A stretch of 35,108 bases of DNA from a virus. Shown piece after piece: positions 1 through 35,108 of the stretch. Location: positions 1-35,108 of the IMG/VR virus record IMGVR_UViG_3300037042_001656. One strand, given 5' to 3'. How positions within the stretch are numbered: position 1 is the first letter of the stretch; every line of letters begins with the position of its first letter. Made by a program: the position numbers and the translations under genes. The notes beneath the pieces were generated by a model. It made no database searches, was not told where the DNA came from, and was given only the letters and a program-made list of their open reading frames with translations.

Positions 1-87
1 GGAAGTTGCAGACGGCACCCAAGAAGAGCGCCGTGCGTACGAGGCCAAACGGGCACGGGAAGACGCCGAAGCCCTGCTTCGGGGTGA
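1..87. repeat. Terminal overlap, left copy
   Basis: These 87 bases are identical to 35022-35108 at the other end. An exact overlap of this size at contig ends is the usual product of assembling a circular or circularly permuted genome, and the gene crossing it stays in frame when the ends are joined. Real short terminal repeats on the packaged DNA cannot be excluded, but the headful-type terminase favours circular permutation. Confidence 0.9.
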
Positions 88-94
88 GTTGTAA
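1..94 (+). CDS. Small membrane protein, 3' part (continues from 34951)
   Basis: This is the C-terminal part of a 54-residue protein that starts at 34951 and runs across the circle join. The in-frame codons begin at base 2 and end at TAA 92-94. This part is strongly charged, rich in Glu, Arg and Ala (EERRAYEAKRAREDAEALL), and probably forms a cytoplasmic helix behind the N-terminal membrane segment encoded at the other end. Function unknown. Confidence 0.6.
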   Translation, partial: EVADGTQEERRAYEAKRAREDAEALLRGEL

Positions 95-119
95 AGAAAC
101 AAGTAATGGAGATAACTAA

Positions 120-455
120 ATGACAGAGCAACAAATAACCCAAGCCCGCGAAGATTTGGAACAGCTTGGGATTGAGCAATTGCGTTGTGGCGTGATGATT
201 CAGCTACTCAAGATCGAGGCACTCACAAAAGAGCGTGACGCACTTCAAAAGCAAGTTGACAAACTATCGTCTTGGGAAGGCGGGGGCGTTGAGGTATCAC
301 TCAATGCGTGGAAAGCTGCACAAGCAGACGCAGCCCGGTATCGCTGGCTGCGGCGAACCGCAACAAAACTGAGTTTTGACAACGTCTTGATTGGCTCACT
401 TGTCAGAGATCAGGCCGAGTTAGACGGCGCGATTCAGGAAGCGGGTGCGCAATGA
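120..455 (+). CDS. Early phage protein of unknown function, coiled coil
   Basis: A 111-residue protein. The start at 120 is supported by a GGAG ribosome site at 108-111. Residues about 30-52 are heptad-like and rich in Lys, Glu, Gln and Leu, which suggests a short coiled coil. The middle carries an ARYRWLRR motif that I recognise from many uncharacterised early proteins of tailed phages; no function is established for it. The stop overlaps the next start as ATGA (452-455), so the two are translationally coupled. It lies in the string of small rightward genes downstream of the recombination module. Confidence 0.7.
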   Translation: MTEQQITQAREDLEQLGIEQLRCGVMIQLLKIEALTKERDALQKQVDKLSSWEGGGVEVSLNAWKAAQADAARYRWLRRTATKLSFDNVLIGSLVRDQAELDGAIQEAGAQ

Positions 456-604
456 AACCACGTATCAGAAAAGAAATGTCGGCACTCTACCGTTGCCCCA
501 TGTGGTTTTGCCGGGGGGCTGGTTGCCTTGGCGTAGCACGCGATCCGGCTTTAGCTTACTGGGACTGGAAGTGGCGCGTCAACGAGAAAGCGAGGATGCA
601 ATGA
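452..604 (+). CDS. Small basic Cys/Trp-rich protein, unknown
   Basis: A 50-residue reading frame. It begins with the ATGA overlap on the previous gene and ends with an ATGA overlap on the next, which is the main evidence that it is translated. The N-terminus is basic (MKPRIRKEM). The middle has three cysteines (CPMWFC and GAGC) and the C-terminal third is rich in aromatics (YWDWKW). The Cys pattern resembles small early-phage zinc-binding peptides but is too short to assign. A longer overlapping frame starting at 445 has no ribosome site and is less likely than this gene plus 601-792. Confidence 0.55.
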   Translation: MKPRIRKEMSALYRCPMWFCRGAGCLGVARDPALAYWDWKWRVNEKARMQ

Positions 605-792
605 GCTTGCCGACCCTACCAAGAAATGAAGGGCTAGAGAAAGCCCTTGGGTGCTCAGTGGTTCACTACCATGAGGCGATAGCCTACGGCCAAGCCTGCC
701 GAGAAACTGCGCTGCTTGACGCCATGAATGCCACCCTACCATTTGGAAAAACCGGAGCCGTTATCGCGGCTGCAATAGGAGTACTTAAATGA
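601..792 (+). CDS. Small early protein, unknown
   Basis: A 63-residue protein coupled to its neighbours by ATGA overlaps at 601-604 and 789-792. The C-terminus is small and hydrophobic (GAVIAAAIGVLK). The DNA encoding this C-terminus (754-792) recurs almost exactly at 1064-1102 and includes the ribosome site AGGAG for the next gene. The same frame is open from 445, but the overlap rule followed throughout this region and the upstream AGCGAGGATGCA favour the start at 601. No family recognised. Confidence 0.6.
   Translation: MSLPTLPRNEGLEKALGCSVVHYHEAIAYGQACRETALLDAMNATLPFGKTGAVIAAAIGVLK
754..792 (+). repeat. 39-base direct repeat, copy 1 (copy 2 at 1064-1102)
   Basis: Copies 1 and 2 agree at 36 of 39 positions, 310 bases apart. 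Both start at GGAGCCGTTAT, contain a G-rich ribosome site and end with the ATGA start/stop junction to the next gene. In copy 1 the repeat is read as GAVIAAAIGVLK-stop. In copy 2 the host gene reads it in another frame. Confidence 0.9.
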
Positions 793-1112
793 CCACACCA
801 CTACAACAAGCAGCCCAAGCTGTAATCGCCCATTTGGATACAACGGACTGGAAAAGTACAAAGCGCACAGCAGAGTACATCCTGACGCTACGCAAAGCAC
901 TTGAAGCCGAGCAAGCGCAGGCGGGGGAGCCCATCGGCTACGTCAGACATGCAGACAAGACTTTTTGGCCTCATCCCGAATGCGCCGTGTATGCATCCGT
1001 GTCACCGAGCCTTGCGCCTGTGTACGCGCACCCAGCCCCACCAGTCGAGCAAGCGCAAGCGGTGGAGCCGTTATTGCGGCTGCAATCGGAGCACTTAAAT
1101 GAAGTGGCTTGA
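789..1112 (+). CDS. Early phage protein with EQAQA repeats, mosaic C-terminus
   Basis: A 107-residue protein starting at the ATGA overlap with the gene before. Residues about 40-47 and 86-93 repeat as EQAQAGEP and EQAQAVEP, and between them lies the motif APVYAHPAPP. I recognise this style from variable, uncharacterised early proteins of many phages. Its last 13 residues are encoded by the second copy of the 39-base repeat (1064-1102), read in a different frame from the first, so the gene runs 14 bases into the next one (start 1099). This suggests that recombination replaced the original gene end. Function unknown. Confidence 0.65.
   Translation: MTTPLQQAAQAVIAHLDTTDWKSTKRTAEYILTLRKALEAEQAQAGEPIGYVRHADKTFWPHPECAVYASVSPSLAPVYAHPAPPVEQAQAVEPLLRLQSEHLNEVA
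1064..1102 (+). repeat. 39-base direct repeat, copy 2, fused to a second repeat at GGAGCC
   Basis: This matches 754-792 at 36 of 39 bases. Bases 1046-1069 also match 908-931 at 22 of 24 positions. The two homologous blocks overlap exactly at GGAGCC (1064-1069), so 1046-1102 looks like a composite of two upstream sequences joined at a shared hexamer. Confidence 0.85.
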
Positions 1113-1494
1113 TAGACGCATAGCAGCAGCAGGGCCGTATCTGACACTATGTTTATCCAACAAAGAATTTATTACCGCCCTATCTCACTGCGGCATAAAG
1201 GAACGTGTTGATTTTGTACGTGGAACCAGCGCTCATGCTACGACACACATATGCACAAATCAAAAGTCAGAACTTGTGTGCATTGTGACTCTGCGAGATT
1301 GGAAAGGACGCGATTCTATTGAAGTGGCTGGGTTACTGGTGCATGAAAGCGTGCATGTATGGCAAGAGTACCGCAAGAGCATTGGTGAAACCCATCCAGC
1401 AGCAGAGCAAGAGGCGTACGGCGTCCAAGCCATCGCCCAAGAACTTATGGCCGAGTTTGTTCGGCTGACGAAAGGCAAAAATGACACCCTTTGA
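1099..1494 (+). CDS. Candidate HExxH zinc metallopeptidase-like protein
   Basis: A 131-residue protein with the motif HESVH at residues 82-86 in a hydrophobic helix (GLLVHESVHVWQEY), followed by an acidic AAEQEAY stretch at 101-107 that could supply the third zinc ligand. This layout fits small gluzincin-like metalloproteins found in phages; peptidase activity is inferred, not shown. It lacks a signal peptide, so it would act in the host cytoplasm. The start at 1099 lies inside the repeat-derived ATGA junction, with CGGAG as ribosome site, and overlaps the end of the upstream gene by 14 bases. It could also be a non-catalytic zinc-binding protein. Confidence 0.6.
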   Translation: MKWLDRRIAAAGPYLTLCLSNKEFITALSHCGIKERVDFVRGTSAHATTHICTNQKSELVCIVTLRDWKGRDSIEVAGLLVHESVHVWQEYRKSIGETHPAAEQEAYGVQAIAQELMAEFVRLTKGKNDTL

Positions 1495-1930
1495 GCAACA
1501 CATAGACGACTGCATTGCCTCCGAAGTCGGACTAGCGCAAGCATTACAACGCGATGGATTCGGGGATTACACCGTGCCTTGGGTGGCCTCTAAGCATAAA
1601 GCTGGGGCCGGACAAATCTGTTTGGAACAAATACGCACCAGTACAAAACGAGGGGGAGGCATGAGTTGCTGCGACTTATCGGTATTCATGGATGACTTCA
1701 ACCACTATTTCAAACAGTTTTTTGATCATGCGCCAACTGAGCAGCAACTGAAGAAGGCGCGAAGCGACTGGCGAGCGGGAAATACTGGCTACGAAGGCGC
1801 TCACAACGCAGACTTCCGAGCCAAGGTGGCGATTGTGAAAGCTAATGAACGCCTTGTAAATATCGGCGGCAACAACTATGCGCATGAAGGATCAGACCTT
1901 GCAAGGCGTTATCAGGAGTCGAACAAATGA
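1481..1930 (+). CDS. Phage protein of unknown function, possible internal start
   Basis: A 149-residue frame that overlaps the previous gene by 14 bases and ends in an ATGA junction with the next. A much stronger ribosome site (AGGGGGAGG, 1651-1659) stands before an in-frame ATG at 1661, which would give an 89-residue product starting MSCCDLSVFMDD. Either start, or both, could be used. The C-terminal part is mixed charged and aromatic (DDFNHYFKQFFDHAPTEQQL, ARSDWRAGN). No domain recognised. Confidence 0.6.
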   Translation: MTPFEQHIDDCIASEVGLAQALQRDGFGDYTVPWVASKHKAGAGQICLEQIRTSTKRGGGMSCCDLSVFMDDFNHYFKQFFDHAPTEQQLKKARSDWRAGNTGYEGAHNADFRAKVAIVKANERLVNIGGNNYAHEGSDLARRYQESNK

Positions 1931-2643
1931 CAACATCAAATTGCATGACTTGCATTTATAGCGGTAGTTGGTGCGGAGGAATCAGCACAGAGCCCGGCCA
2001 CTGCTACATGTTCAAAGACGAGCCGGACGGGGTTTGTGGGCAGTGGAGGACATCAATCACCCCACCACCAGCCGGTGAGCGTGCGGAGTTGATTGCAGGA
2101 ATCAAACATGAGTTGGCAGAGTTTGCGCTGGCCGAGGCCGAGCAGGAGAACAGGCTTTTACGCGCACGCAATGAGAGACTGATGGCCGAGGCCGTGGCCA
2201 GCAACTTTGATCGCACCGCTGCCTGGTTGAAGGTTTGCGGAAAAGAGCCGAGCGCCGAGAACATGAGCGTGCAGGTGGGTTGCATGGTGGAGGAGTTCTG
2301 CGAGCTGCTGTCGTGCCTGCGCACCGACTCTGAGGGCTACGCCAAGCTGCTGGATCGCACGCGCCTCGACTTGGAGTGGTTCGCCAGCAAGTTGAAGCGC
2401 CGTGACCAGGCTATCTACATCCCGCACCACCTGCGCACCGATGCCCTGGATGCTTTGTGTGATGTCGAAGTCACTGCCAATGGCGTGGCTTACTTGGCCG
2501 AGATGGATAAGCCTGGGGCTGATCGCGCCGTGCTGGACTCCAACGACGCCAAGCTAGTCGATGGCAAGCCGGTGATTCTGGAGGGTGGAAAGATCGGCAA
2601 GCCTGCTGGTTGGACCGCTCCGGATCTGCGGGGGTTCGTATGA
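1927..2643 (+). CDS. MazG-like NTP pyrophosphohydrolase with N-terminal Cys motif
   Basis: A 238-residue protein with two parts. The N-terminus has five cysteines (C6, C9, C16, C26, C37) ending in CGQW, a likely metal-binding module. The C-terminal part resembles all-alpha NTP pyrophosphohydrolases (MazG/HisE superfamily): an EEFCE motif at 122-126 (EExxE, metal binding), then DALDALCD at 172-179, and a family-typical tail GKPAGWTAPDLRGFV. Such enzymes hydrolyse nucleoside triphosphates to the monophosphate and pyrophosphate, and phages may use them to adjust nucleotide or alarmone pools; the true substrate is unknown. A charged helix joins the parts. The start at 1927 overlaps the upstream stop as ATGA. 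Confidence 0.75.
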   Translation: MTTSNCMTCIYSGSWCGGISTEPGHCYMFKDEPDGVCGQWRTSITPPPAGERAELIAGIKHELAEFALAEAEQENRLLRARNERLMAEAVASNFDRTAAWLKVCGKEPSAENMSVQVGCMVEEFCELLSCLRTDSEGYAKLLDRTRLDLEWFASKLKRRDQAIYIPHHLRTDALDALCDVEVTANGVAYLAEMDKPGADRAVLDSNDAKLVDGKPVILEGGKIGKPAGWTAPDLRGFV

Positions 2644-3137
2644 AGAAGGCCGGGAAAAGACGCCCGGCCCAAAGGCCGAAGCACTACACCATCATGGACG
2701 AGATGATGGCCAGTCCGACCGAGCCGCTGCCTGTTGCGCACCGCACGCACCAGCTCACCATGATGTATGAGGGCTTGAATGCAATGGAGACAGCGCCAAC
2801 ACCCACCACAGATGACTGGCGTGTGGTTTCCGATGCAGTCAACCTTATGGAGACGCTGGTGCTCGACATGAAGGTCTGTGAGGATTCTGGTGGCTTGCTG
2901 ATGGATGCAATCACCGCTTTAGCGGTCGCTGGCAAGCGAAACATGGCCAGTGGCACCATCCGTATGGATGGGACTGGAATTCAGGCTGTACGGGCCATCT
3001 TGAGCGATTACGCTGACCTTCTGGATGTGCTTTCTGCACGCACCATGATTCGCTGCCACCGCCTGACCGAGAAACGCCTGCATGAGCTGCTCGATGGCAA
3101 GCGCAGGCCGCACGATGTGGAAGTGACGTCGATCTAA
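2640..3137 (+). CDS. Phage protein of unknown function
   Basis: A 165-residue protein. The start at 2640 forms an ATGA overlap with the MazG-like gene; an in-frame ATG at 2610 would lie well inside that gene and is less likely. The N-terminus is very basic (MKKAGKRRPAQRPKHY). The rest is helical, with a central VSDAVNLMETLVLDMKV stretch and a C-terminal histidine/arginine-rich segment. It is probably a soluble early protein and I cannot place it in a family. It ends the tightly coupled run, since the next gene has its own leader. Confidence 0.6.
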   Translation: MKKAGKRRPAQRPKHYTIMDEMMASPTEPLPVAHRTHQLTMMYEGLNAMETAPTPTTDDWRVVSDAVNLMETLVLDMKVCEDSGGLLMDAITALAVAGKRNMASGTIRMDGTGIQAVRAILSDYADLLDVLSARTMIRCHRLTEKRLHELLDGKRRPHDVEVTSI

Positions 3138-3223
3138 GGGTTTATCCCTATAAAATAAGTGTGAGATTGTTGGAAGTCGTGTTATAGTTGAGCCATCAAC
3201 AACCAACCAGCAAGGAGCTGACC
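3138..3223 (+). promoter_or_regulatory. Leader with candidate promoter before 3224
   Basis: This 86-base gap breaks a run of overlapping genes. It contains AGGG-TTTAT-CCCT (a small hairpin), TATAAAAT (3149-3156), and the element GTGTGAGATT followed 14 bases later by TATAGTTG (3183-3190). The same two elements occur at 34296-34319 in a closer spacing. TATAGT (3183-3188) is a good -10 match; the -35 (GTGAGA, 16-base spacer) is poor. A ribosome site, AAGGAG, precedes the GTG start at 3224. Confidence 0.45.
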
Positions 3224-3544
3224 GTGATCAAGTTCAACAAATTCAACGTGACAAATGGTACTGACAAAGCCAAGGTGCATTACAGCCTGGACAACCGCTT
3301 TGATGGCCGCGCTTGTGTGACTATTTACGCCAAGGACTATGACCGCTCCATGGGCCGTATCTTTGATGGTGAGTACACCAACAACACGGACACGATGACC
3401 GACTATTTCGACAAGGGTCGTGTGGTGTTGTTTGCTGACCATGCTTTGTATGCCGCTGCCCGTGCACGTGCTGAGGATGTGGTCGCTGAACAAAAAGCAA
3501 AGTACGAAGCACGCCGCGCATCTTGGAACTTGGCCGCAGCTTAA
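3224..3544 (+). CDS. Phage protein of unknown function
   Basis: A 106-residue protein. I chose the GTG at 3224 because AAGGAGCTGACC precedes it at proper spacing. A TTG 36 bases upstream is in frame but lies in the putative promoter. The N-terminal half looks beta-rich with alternating hydrophobics (KVHYSLDNRFDG, ACVTIYAKDYD). The C-terminal third is an Ala/Arg/Glu helix (AAARARAEDVVAEQKAKYEA). It resembles small uncharacterised phage proteins produced from their own promoter. No function is assigned. Confidence 0.65.
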   Translation: MIKFNKFNVTNGTDKAKVHYSLDNRFDGRACVTIYAKDYDRSMGRIFDGEYTNNTDTMTDYFDKGRVVLFADHALYAAARARAEDVVAEQKAKYEARRASWNLAAA

Positions 3545-7152: not shown

Positions 7153-9084
7153 TCAAGGCTGCACGGGTGGCAATGCGTTGAGGGCTTCATTAATCTTGGC
7201 CTTGGTGCGCCCTTCCTGGCGCATCTTAATGATCTGGCGCAGGCCAGATGCCACTGGAAGTGGCAGGCCCGTGAGTGCGCCTGTGGCACCGGCTTCTGCG
7301 ATGGCTGCCATGAGCGTGCCTGCTGTGCCTGAGCTGTTTACCAGTGTGCCTGGTGGCACTGTGGTCACGTAGCGCACAACGTCATCGAGATCGCGCACGG
7401 TCTGTGCGTTTTTCTTGCCAAGGATGACATCAAGTCGGCCATTGGCATCGAGGGCTTGCACGGACTGGTGCAGCTTGGCTGGAGAGATCAAGGGCCGGTC
7501 TTGTGAGTCCATGCCCATGCCCTTGGTGGCCTCGTCTCTGAGGTGACGAACGGTAGCGCCTTGCAGCTCTTTGAAGGCTTGCTGGCCGTCTTTGCCGCTG
7601 GTCAGGAGGACGCGCTTCAAGAACGTGATCTCTTCGGGCGACGAGTTCAAGATGGACTTGCGGAAAACCTGGTCGGCTGCTACCTGGGGATCTTCCATGC
7701 CTTTGCGGTTTTTGATGAGACGGGCGACGATGGCGCGGTTCTCGAACTTGCGAGCTTGGTCGATGCGGGTCTGACGGGCCTTTTTGTAGAGGTCTCCACC
7801 CATGCCCTCTGTCTCAACGTCGAATGCACGTTTGAGGCTGCCGCCGTGGAACTGATCTGCGCCCTCAAAGCCTGCACGCTGGAAGGTCTGGCGCAGGCTT
7901 TCTGCTTGGCGCAAGGTGATGGGTTGGGCCACGAGCCTGCCGTCTGCGTCTGGGACTGCTGCGCCGATGGCAATGGCCTTCTGCTGTGCTGCCTTGAGGA
8001 TGGGGGCCAGGTCGCCTTCTGGGATGTTCTCGTTGATGTAGTCCACCACCGAGCTGAGGGTGACGTTGTTCTCCAGCTCGCCAGCTTTCTCGGCTGCTTT
8101 GTAAGCTGCGCGAGTCTTGTTCTTGGCGGCTGTGAGGCCTTCGGTCAGGGACTTGACGACAGCGCCTCCTGTGGACGACAAGTCCATGAGCTGGGCGTCT
8201 GTCATCTCTGCGAGTGCGTCAAAGTTCTGCAAGGCTTGCAGGTTGTTTTCTTCTGCACGCTGGCGCAGGGGGCCGCCCAGATCGCTCTTGATCTGTTCCT
8301 TTTCAAAGGCCAGCTGCTGGGCGTCCCTGGTGGCCGCGCCTTTGGTGAGCTGCACCGGTACTGGAAGGCTTTCTGCTGTCGTAGTGCGACGCAATGCCTC
8401 TGGTGTGGCTGCTGCACCAACAGAAGCGCGTGCGCCTGCTGCTGGGGCTGTGGCGGTCACGGCTGGGGTCTCCATGCCCAAGGTCTCGCGCACGGCTGTG
8501 GTGGCCGCTTGCACTGGCTTGGCGATGGCTTGGCCTGTTGTCCTGGCCGCCTGCTGCACTGCGGCTGCACCGCGCTGTGCTGTGGCCTGCGTGATTGGGG
8601 CTGCGCTGCGTGCTGCCTGAGTGAGAGCGCCTGGTGCTGCAATCATGGGCAGGACGGGCGGCAGGACGTTGGCCAGGACTTGACCCACGGCTTGCACCTG
8701 CTCTTGGCCAGCTTGGGTGCGTGGCTGGTAGGTGAGCGCTTGAGCGCCAGCGGCTGCTGCCTTCTCGACCGCACGCACAGCTTCTGGCGTTCCGAACTGA
8801 CCGGACAGGATCTGCTGAGATAAACCCTGGAGAGTGCCGGCCAGTGTGCCGAGCGTGCCACCGACTGCGCCAGTGCCAAGAGTCAGGGCTGTTTCTCCAG
8901 CGCCTACGATCTGATCCATCACGCCTGGCTGCTGTGGTGCTGGTGCGTTCTGTCTTTGGAACGTGGCCGTGTTTTCTTCGCCCTTGGCAAGCTGGTAAGC
9001 CTGGGCCACGGTGTCGAACTCAGGAGTCCCGCGCTTGGAGGAATTCTTGACGATCCAAGATGCGTATTCGTCAGCGGTCGCCAT
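7153..9084 (-). CDS. Internal virion/DNA ejection protein, P22 gp16-like position
   Basis: A 643-residue protein. It starts with ADEYASWIVKNSSKRGTPEF, which I recognise from large internal proteins of short-tailed phages, then a Gly/Ala-rich stretch able to enter a membrane (GTGAVGGTLGTLAGTL, about 70-90), an Ala/Thr-rich linker and a long charged helical C-terminal half. In P22 the gene in this place, 16 (609 residues), encodes a protein ejected with the DNA that helps it cross the inner membrane. Position after gp7/gp20-like genes and before the tailspike matches P22 order, so the role is assigned mainly from synteny and composition. Starts directly after the upstream stop. Confidence 0.7.
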   Translation of the reverse strand: MATADEYASWIVKNSSKRGTPEFDTVAQAYQLAKGEENTATFQRQNAPAPQQPGVMDQIVGAGETALTLGTGAVGGTLGTLAGTLQGLSQQILSGQFGTPEAVRAVEKAAAAGAQALTYQPRTQAGQEQVQAVGQVLANVLPPVLPMIAAPGALTQAARSAAPITQATAQRGAAAVQQAARTTGQAIAKPVQAATTAVRETLGMETPAVTATAPAAGARASVGAAATPEALRRTTTAESLPVPVQLTKGAATRDAQQLAFEKEQIKSDLGGPLRQRAEENNLQALQNFDALAEMTDAQLMDLSSTGGAVVKSLTEGLTAAKNKTRAAYKAAEKAGELENNVTLSSVVDYINENIPEGDLAPILKAAQQKAIAIGAAVPDADGRLVAQPITLRQAESLRQTFQRAGFEGADQFHGGSLKRAFDVETEGMGGDLYKKARQTRIDQARKFENRAIVARLIKNRKGMEDPQVAADQVFRKSILNSSPEEITFLKRVLLTSGKDGQQAFKELQGATVRHLRDEATKGMGMDSQDRPLISPAKLHQSVQALDANGRLDVILGKKNAQTVRDLDDVVRYVTTVPPGTLVNSSGTAGTLMAAIAEAGATGALTGLPLPVASGLRQIIKMRQEGRTKAKINEALNALPPVQP

Positions 9085-29425: not shown

Positions 29426-30103
29426 ATGGCTATCAATTTAAAGACGACCGGCAGTTTGTCTGCCAATGGAGTGAAGTTGCTTGTTTATGGTGCTGCTGGT
29501 GCTGGCAAGACTACGCTTGTCAAAACCCTGCCCAATGTGATTGTGCTGAGTGCCGAGGGTGGCTTGTTGAGCATTCAAGATGCTGACCTGCCTTACATTG
29601 AGATCGCCAGCATGGACGACTTGCGCGAGGCATTTACTTGGTGCCGCGACAGCAAGGAGGCCGCTGGATTTGAGTCGGTCGCGCTGGATTCGATCAGCGA
29701 AGTAGCCGAGGTGGTGCTGCACCACGAGATGAAGAAGTCCAAGGATGGCCGCGCTGCTTATGGCGAGATGAACAGCACCATGCAGGAGCTGATTCGCGCC
29801 TTTCGCGATCTGCCTGGCAAGCATGTCTTTATGTCGGCCAAGCTGGAGAAGTCCACCGATGAGATGGGCAAGATGCTCTACAACCCAGGCATGCCAGGCA
29901 AGAGCCTGACACAAGGCCTGCCTTACTTCTTTGATGAAGTGCTGGCGCTGCGTGTTGAGCGCGATGCTGAGGGTGTGACGCAACGCGCCTTGATGTGCGA
30001 CTCGGATGGCCTCTGGCTGGCCAAGGATCGCTCTGGAAAGTTGTCTGGCTGGGAAGCCCCAGACCTGGGCGCGATCATTGCCAAGATTGGAGCACGATCA
30101 TGA
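29426..30103 (+). CDS. Sak4-like AAA_24 recombination ATPase
   Basis: A 225-residue RecA-fold ATPase with Walker A GAAGAGKT (22-29), VLSAEGGLLSIQ (the typical second block, 40-51) and Walker B FESVALDS (D88). It matches phage AAA_24/Sak4-type proteins, which act in single-strand annealing or strand exchange together with an SSB. The neighbouring DUF669, exonuclease and helicase genes support a recombination or replication role. The start at 29426 is chosen for the AAGGAGA seven bases upstream and the fitting N-terminus; an in-frame ATG at 29360 lies in the promoter region. First gene of the rightward arm. Confidence 0.85.
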   Translation: MAINLKTTGSLSANGVKLLVYGAAGAGKTTLVKTLPNVIVLSAEGGLLSIQDADLPYIEIASMDDLREAFTWCRDSKEAAGFESVALDSISEVAEVVLHHEMKKSKDGRAAYGEMNSTMQELIRAFRDLPGKHVFMSAKLEKSTDEMGKMLYNPGMPGKSLTQGLPYFFDEVLALRVERDAEGVTQRALMCDSDGLWLAKDRSGKLSGWEAPDLGAIIAKIGARS

Positions 30104-30661: not shown

Positions 30662-31162
30662 ATGGCTTTTCTTTCTGAATCTTTCGACGTCAACGAACTG
30701 CCCCAGGGCAACACTGGCAACTTTGAGCCTTTGCCTGCTGGCTGGTACACCGTGACGATCACGCGGGCCGAGCTGAAAGCAACTAAGGCTGGCAATGGCC
30801 AGTACATCAAGCTGCGCTACGACGTGACGGGCCCGACCCATCAGGGCCGTGTGGTGTTTGGCAATCTGAACATCAAAAACCCGAACCAGAAGGCTGAGGA
30901 GATCGGCCGGCAACAGCTGGGTGACATCATGCGTGCCATTGGCTTGGCCAAGGTGACCGACACCGATCAATTGATTGGTGGACAGATTGGCATCAAGCTA
31001 GAAGTCAAGCAGGACGAGCAGTATGGTGCAAGCAATGAGGTCAAGGGCTTCAAGTCCTTGTTGGGCAGTGCAGCACCAGCTGCTACATCAATCCCTGCCA
31101 AGACTGCTGCGCCAGCTCCAGCAGCGCCAGCCAAGGCTGCACCGCCTTGGGCTAAGAAGTAA
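30662..31162 (+). CDS. DUF669 protein, probable ssDNA-binding protein
   Basis: A 166-residue protein with the DUF669 layout: GNFEPLPAGWYTVTITRAEL, then GQYIKLRYDVTGPTHQGRVV and NQKAEEIGRQQLGDIMRAIG. An OB-like beta core is followed by an Ala/Pro-rich flexible tail ending PPWAKK. Family members accompany Sak4/RecT-type genes and are thought to bind single-stranded DNA. The tail has no acidic tip like bacterial SSB. AAGGAG precedes the ATG at 30662. Confidence 0.8.
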   Translation: MAFLSESFDVNELPQGNTGNFEPLPAGWYTVTITRAELKATKAGNGQYIKLRYDVTGPTHQGRVVFGNLNIKNPNQKAEEIGRQQLGDIMRAIGLAKVTDTDQLIGGQIGIKLEVKQDEQYGASNEVKGFKSLLGSAAPAATSIPAKTAAPAPAAPAKAAPPWAKK

Positions 31163-31201: not shown

Positions 31202-31228
31202 AAAGTGGCAACTACAAAGGAGAAACCC

Positions 31229-32254
31229 ATGAAGATTCCCGAGTCAGAGCATAACATTCAGGCGATGATTGACAAGCACCATGAGGCCATTGCTGAGGTG
31301 CCGCGCCCACACCTTGGGGCCAGTGGGCTGGGCCACCCTTGCGACCGTTGGCTGTGGTTGTCGTTCCGATGGGCGGTGCTGCCCGAGTTTCCTGGCCGCA
31401 TCTTGCGATTGTTCCGCCGTGGCCAGAATGAGGAGGCCACGATTATCAGCGACTTGCGCTCCATTGGAATGGATGTGCGCAAGGTGTCGAGCCAGCACCG
31501 TGTGGACTTTGGCAGCCATGTGTCTGGAAGCCTGGACGCCATCATTGACAAGGGAGTTCCAGAAGCACCAAAGACCAAGCATGTGGCCGAGTTCAAGACG
31601 CACTCTAAAAAATCCTTTGATGCTTTGGTGAAGGATGGCGTGGAGAAGTCGAAGCCCGAGCATTTTGTGCAGATGCAGGTCTACATGGCAGGGACTGGCC
31701 TGGATCGTGCGCTGTATCTGGCCGTGTGCAAGGATGATGATCGGATTCACACCGAGCGTGTGAAGTTCGACCCTGCTGTGGCGCTGCCTGCGATTGAGCG
31801 AGGCCAGCGCATTGCACTGACTGACCGGATGCCGGAGCCGATCAGTTCTGACGCAAGCTGGTACAAGTGCAAATTCTGCGATGCGCATGAGTTCTGCCAC
31901 CAGTCCAAGACCACCAAGCACGTCAATTGCCGCACCTGTGCCCATGCCACACCTCTGTCGGACTCGACCTGGCACTGCGCAAAGTGGGACGATGTAATTC
32001 CATTGGATGCCCAGCGCACTGGTTGCGAGTCTCATGTCCTGCATCCTGACTTGGTGCCATGGCAGCGCAAGGATGGGCCAGACGAGTTCACCGCTGTGTA
32101 TGAGATCAATGGCGTGAATCTGGCCAATGGTGATCCTGAACAGGAGGGTGTCTATGGCTCTAAGGAGTTGCTGGCCAATGCCTCTGCCTGCGCCAGCAGT
32201 GATCCGTTCATTGCTGACATGCGCAAGATTTGGGGTGCGAGGGTGGTGGCCTGA
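31229..32254 (+). CDS. Cas4/RecB-like PD-(D/E)XK exonuclease with extra Cys4 tail
   Basis: A 341-residue nuclease. Catalytic residues: GSLDAI (D103) and AEFKTH (E121, K123), then QMQVYMAG. An iron-sulfur type arrangement as in Cas4/AddB is visible: C38 near the N-terminus and C214, C217 and C223 (CKFCDAHEFC) after the core. A further cysteine module (C234, C237, C250, C266) is joined behind it, similar in layout to other small Cys modules of this phage. It probably resects DNA ends for the annealing ATPase. The start at 31229 is set by AAGGAGA; the stop shares one base with the helicase start. Confidence 0.82.
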   Translation: MKIPESEHNIQAMIDKHHEAIAEVPRPHLGASGLGHPCDRWLWLSFRWAVLPEFPGRILRLFRRGQNEEATIISDLRSIGMDVRKVSSQHRVDFGSHVSGSLDAIIDKGVPEAPKTKHVAEFKTHSKKSFDALVKDGVEKSKPEHFVQMQVYMAGTGLDRALYLAVCKDDDRIHTERVKFDPAVALPAIERGQRIALTDRMPEPISSDASWYKCKFCDAHEFCHQSKTTKHVNCRTCAHATPLSDSTWHCAKWDDVIPLDAQRTGCESHVLHPDLVPWQRKDGPDEFTAVYEINGVNLANGDPEQEGVYGSKELLANASACASSDPFIADMRKIWGARVVA

Positions 32255-34954: not shown

Positions 34955-35108
34955 GCCCCGGATACTGGGTGATGCTTATCCTAGGCGTTGTTGCGGGCTG
35001 CTGGCTTACGGCATTTCTTGCGGAAGTTGCAGACGGCACCCAAGAAGAGCGCCGTGCGTACGAGGCCAAACGGGCACGGGAAGACGCCGAAGCCCTGCTT
35101 CGGGGTGA
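34951..35108 (+). CDS. Small membrane protein, 5' part (continues at base 1)
   Basis: The start of a protein that continues in frame at the beginning of the window and stops at 92-94, giving 54 residues in all. It opens MSPGYWVMLILGVVAGCWLT, a single membrane helix from about residue 5 to 23 with a possible Cys acylation or disulfide position, and then runs into a charged helix. It overlaps the previous stop as ATGA. Function unknown; the size and topology recall small phage inner-membrane proteins. Confidence 0.65.
   Translation, partial: MSPGYWVMLILGVVAGCWLTAFLAEVADGTQEERRAYEAKRAREDAEALLRG
35022..35108. repeat. Terminal overlap, right copy
   Basis: Identical to 1-87. The unique circular length is therefore 35,021 bases. 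Confidence 0.9.

Follow-up and report, generated by a model that had tools for sequence, protein, structure and literature searches.

Several described systems of phage mosaicism lie close to the locus considered here. Illegitimate recombination at short matches is a debated source of mosaic genomes (PMC2327257, PMC3945230), and such events have been argued to be much rarer in phage evolution than recombinase-driven ones (PMC3945230). Conserved short sequences at module borders of related phages are mentioned as a further case in the introduction of PMC2327257, and relaxed homologous recombination by annealing proteins such as Red beta and Sak4 is another (PMC2327257, PMC3945230, PMC5928155). 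In HK620, Sak4 anneals strands, diverged ones included, and its SSB stimulates it (PMC5928155). For RecET, joining at 5-13 bp is reported (Shiraishi 2002, cited in PMC2327257). At the protein level, high-identity fragments common to otherwise unrelated phage proteins point to ongoing domain shuffling (Smug et al. 2023, PMC10684548).

The window, which is the whole stretch of 35,108 nucleotides analysed, is an IMG/VR virus record, and relatives of its genes B, C and D (contigs L002, L003 and so on) were found by IMG/VR scans. Of interest is a joint at the six bases GGAGCC within gene C, a clear and well-resolved example of known phage gene shuffling, in an unusually densely shuffled region. With the illegitimate recombination cases it shares unrelated flanks, few bases at the joint and a neighbouring gene that is still workable; it differs in that its parents and derived direction are readable at the base level, and in being intragenic and out of frame. 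Most junctions of the region fall on recurring short shared sequences, either at gene starts or at gene ends that carry ATGA, and the same short sequence borders different modules in several phages, which recalls the conserved border sequences, but many shared joints here are intragenic, at linker codons (EQAQAVEP and AYGQACRE among them). The phage has a Sak4-like protein, an SSB and an exonuclease, as relaxed homologous recombination calls for, and most neighbouring junctions have longer shared stretches, many of them with similarity over tens of bases at the crossover; the window joint, in contrast, has six shared bases and no extended similarity. Fragments shared by otherwise unrelated proteins are also found: in L005 and L020 the first 41 residues of E are fused with the C-terminal half of B, and the cassette of gene C has different flanks in the contigs named in Table 1. 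These fragments differ from those of Smug et al. in size, about 10-45 residues in small uncharacterised proteins, where that study required at least 50 residues of its sequence-based pairs, and in that the DNA joints are readable.

The contig ends in an 87-nt direct terminal repeat (window 1-87 and 35022-35108) and thus probably represents a complete, closed circle of about 35.0 kb. Genes B, C and D, and then E and F, follow one another on the + strand, each overlapping the next by ATGA or a short stretch; D starts with the ATGA at 1099 and belongs to phrog_882, a family of uncharacterised function. Pfam and PHROGs gave no match for B and C, nor did Pfam for their relatives; the longer C protein of L002 had no relative among annotated phage records, and the B tail and the C cassette had no confirmed relatives in bacterial genomes.

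Table 1. Positions in the window of the genes, modules and joint discussed in the text.
Feature	Positions	Strand	Description	Basis
Gene B	601..792	+	C-terminal half (…ALLDAMNATLPFGKTGAVIAAAIGVLK) is a tail common to many genes in relatives	
First tail module	754..792	+	End of gene B with the ribosome site and the ATGA at which gene C starts	
Gene C	789..1112	+	Chimeric: N-terminal part, linker, IGYV..VYAHPAP cassette, linker, frame-shifted tail LLRLQSEHLNEVA	
First linker of gene C	905..931	+	EQAQAxEP	
Cassette of gene C	932..1042	+	IGYVRHADKTFWPHPECAVYASVSPSLAPVYAHPAP; different right-hand neighbours in L002, L004, L005 and L006	
Second linker of gene C	1043..1069	+	EQAQAVEP, ending at the joint; continues in frame to VAW.. 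in L002 and L006	
Joint	1064..1069	+	GGAGCC, common to linker parent and tail parent	Match ends in relatives
Second tail module	1064..1102	+	Terminal part of a B-type gene now lost, with ribosome site GGAG and the ATGA at which D starts	39/39 to L004 and L012
Mobile block	1097..1602	+	D and first 41 codons of E; other gene order in sister phage	98.8% identical in sister phage
Gene D	1099..1494	+	HExxH-like motif; the tail in front of the gene varies between phages	phrog_882
Sak4-like single-strand annealing protein	29426..30103	+		phrog_124, E = 3.6e-55; AAA_24
Single-strand-binding-like protein (DUF669)	30662..31162	+		phrog_6015, 5.7e-30
Cas4/RecE-like exonuclease	31205..32254	+		phrog_1990, 2e-97

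The first-pass annotation had described two near-repeats, of 36/39 and 22/24 matches, that overlap exactly on GGAGCC, and both pairs are real. Bases 754-792 match 1064-1102 at 36 of 39 positions with a spacing of 310; bases 905-931 match 1043-1069 at 24 of 27, in frame and with a spacing of 138, and within this second pair 908-931 and 1046-1069 agree at 22 of 24. The two second copies have in common exactly 1064-1069. Codon-block shuffles of 1-3300 reach at best 24-26 matches in 39, against the 36 observed, and at distances of up to 6 kb no other near-repeats of this length in the 35 kb come close to these two pairs. The annotation had also proposed a search for other near-repeats of 20-60 bases; nothing comparable is present elsewhere in the window, and the pattern is visible only between phages.

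Was the second tail copied from the first, as had been supposed? The module at 1064-1102 is identical (39/39) to those of L004 and L012, whereas it agrees with the window's own 754-792 at 36/39, and literal copying of 754-792 is rejected because of this perfect match to other phages. A tail-ATGA module of this type precedes different genes in at least eight contigs, and 1064-1102 reads as a pool-wide tail module, not a fresh copy. Nor can the ATGA/ribosome-site module of D be called fresh, as the annotation had it: in L094 and L095 a B-type gene runs directly into D, with the border GGAGCC...AAATGA and no C between, so the start module of D is old. A tandem duplication, in which the end of B was copied together with C next to itself, would account for the 36/39 identity and the 310-nt spacing, but is very unlikely, as its second copy should be closest to the first but differs from it at three sites, while being identical to modules in other phages, and D already has such a tail in phages without C. 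The 24-nt repeat, likewise, is a linker that recurs across the C family and not a product of the joint event.

How, then, did the two second copies come together? The match to L002 and L003 covers window 909-1069 at 97.5% identity and ends at 1069; that to L094 and L095, two contigs giving the same match over the joint region, covers 1064-1602 at 96.3% and begins at 1064. Two identifiable parents meet at the joint, and outside GGAGCC their 25-nt flanks are identical at 8-10 of 25 positions on the left and 5-9 of 25 on the right; extended similarity around the joint is absent and the six bases are all that they have in common. The base before GGAGCC is T in linkers and C in most tails, and the base after is C or T in linkers and G in tails, which fixes the overlap at six; it would be seven with the tail of L012, which carries T before GGAGCC. 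Random joints between the two parental regions share at least six bases in 0.22% of trials, a figure to be taken as post hoc because the site was preselected by the reader of the sequence. Short repeats are common in general, but the shuffles cited above and the termination of parental matches of 96-97.5% at the same six bases leave a chance resemblance of two unrelated repeats with almost no probability.

Both parental layouts are present in relatives, with D directly behind a B-type gene in one and the linker of the window's C cassette running on in frame in the other (Table 1). In the sister phage G004 (L005), C stands behind a B tail and D behind another tail. The joint in its context is absent from all other IMG/VR contigs found, in a search from which near-identical records may have been withheld and in which six pattern matches lie in unrelated contexts, and the window state is therefore taken as derived. 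This upholds the first-pass view that gene C gained a new, frame-shifted end at a short match; the situation named there as speaking against it, relatives all with the same arrangement, was not encountered. The joint is known from a single assembled metagenomic contig from a pool of related phages, no second contig showing it, and a chimeric assembly or chimeric read might be suspected. This is improbable: the 87-nt end repeat suggests assembly words of about 87 nt, longer than the 6-nt and 39-nt repeats, and the flanks differ by 2-4% from every relative, which does not resemble a patchwork of known contigs. Taken as a whole, 1064-1069 is very probably a derived, non-homologous recombination joint, by which a C-type linker was joined to the tail before D. 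Its anatomy, parents and direction can be read from the comparison of sequences; the part of an enzyme and the effect on expression, treated below, are predictions.

Gene C is cut in the EQAQAVEP linker, beyond which the final 39 nt of a B-type gene follow in a different frame. The tail read in its own frame gives GAVIAAAIGALK followed by a stop codon, and gene C reads the same bases shifted (Table 1), with a 14-nt overlap with D; both the ribosome site GGAG and the ATGA from which D starts are preserved. The annotation's out-of-frame segment stands as regards the frame, but not as regards its supposed source in 754-792. In another context, at 12-533 of L006, the C cassette and EQAQAVEP linker lead in frame into residues 91-238 of the MazG-like protein F, whose N-terminal module in the window is a different one, joined at a PPAGERAEL linker.

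The following course of events is proposed. In an ancestor, D would have stood directly behind a B-type gene ending in GGAGCC-(tail)-ATGA, the layout kept in L094 and L095. A C-type gene would have entered behind another copy of the same tail, as laid out in the sister phage, and its right end would have been joined, within the EQAQAVEP linker, to the tail before D via the six shared bases. The joint would have truncated C, replacing its end by the frame-shifted tail reading, and left the ribosome site and start codon of D intact, so that expression of D should persist. A single relative with both immediate parents was not found, and the exact donor tail (39/39) was not seen joined to D among the relatives; the tail before D in L095 has diverged, which calls for one or more additional exchanges near 1084-1103.

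Window and sister phage are collinear outside the early region, at 85-95% identity, but window 88-3423 has only scattered matching blocks there, in a different order. One of these, the displaced D block (1097-1602), is 98.8% identical against the 85-95% of the backbone, and has probably been exchanged since the lineages split. This bears on an internal deletion, by which an ancestor with B, a long C, possibly other genes, a second B-type gene and D lost, by slippage at GGAGCC, the stretch that separated the C linker from the second tail. Such a deletion would give the same joint in one step, and serial tail-bearing genes do exist, e.g. in L002 and L095, but no relative with the exact ancestral order was found and D seems to have moved between phages recently. 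Exchange between phages is favoured for this last reason; the two are hard to separate, and the deletion is a possibility at somewhat worse than even odds.

A survey of the window and 13 relatives gave 129 three-way mosaic junctions, which overlap heavily and are not independent. Every junction that was classified either keeps the frame inside a gene or falls at a gene boundary, except those with the window's 1064-1102 piece, and the window joint is the one out-of-frame joint found among them. Frame-shifted junctions listed in other phages trace to the window piece as comparison partner and are not further events. The argued rarity of illegitimate events (PMC3945230) fits the window joint as a single exception here. 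Sequence shared at junctions extends up to 45 nt, the limit of the search, and turns up repeatedly at a small number of linkers and gene ends. Keeping the frame is automatic when the shared sequence is homologous coding DNA, and so is not by itself evidence of selection. Joining at a short match is not unique to the window, since L002 has, at 3415-3425, an 11-nt joint (AGCGGCTGCAA) at which a B tail and an A0-type tail are connected in frame. L089 has a similar joint of 8 nt around 7403-7410.

Other two-part constructs are seen in the region. Gene E (window 1481-1930) has its first 41 codons in common with sister phages and diverges at 1602, from which point the sister phages have a WQAGRE-ALLDAMNAT B tail; the hinge is used differently. 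In gene 120-455 the C-terminal half (323-455, DAARYRWL…) is common to L012 and L014, and the N-terminal 121 nt to many others. At about 2038-2068, L089 has an array of GGCTACGGC-type units, probably Gly/Tyr-rich coding sequence.

Could the early region as a whole be an open-ended combinatorial cassette system? Tentatively, and at less than an even chance, linkers (EQAQAVEP, AYGQACRE, ERDAL, PAGERAEL and ADAARYRWL) and gene ends (ribosome site and ATGA) might be kept similar as reusable recombination joints, small proteins being continually reassembled and out-of-frame joints being rare by-products that create new protein ends.

The first-pass annotation had pointed to an annealing-type recombination system in this phage, correctly in view of the Sak4-like protein (Table 1). 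Among 19 related contigs, many of them partial, Sak4 has a close match in one and weak matches in two more. The likely route to the joint is that the phage exonuclease would expose single strands, which the Sak4/SSB pair would join at the short match; alternatively, pairing at the match may have been a plain end-joining or copy-choice event. That Sak4-assisted annealing at the six-base match made the joint is plausible but unproven. The joint lies in an early-gene cassette region that is shuffled wholesale between phages, mostly via longer, frame-keeping shared sequences of linkers and gene ends.

Phage mosaic joints are usually eroded; here the parents, the six shared bases and the consequence for the reading frame are all readable. 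The region constitutes a natural data set on the share of illegitimate versus short-homology mosaicism, and the joint shows a small protein gaining a new C-terminus in one step, with the start of the next gene preserved.
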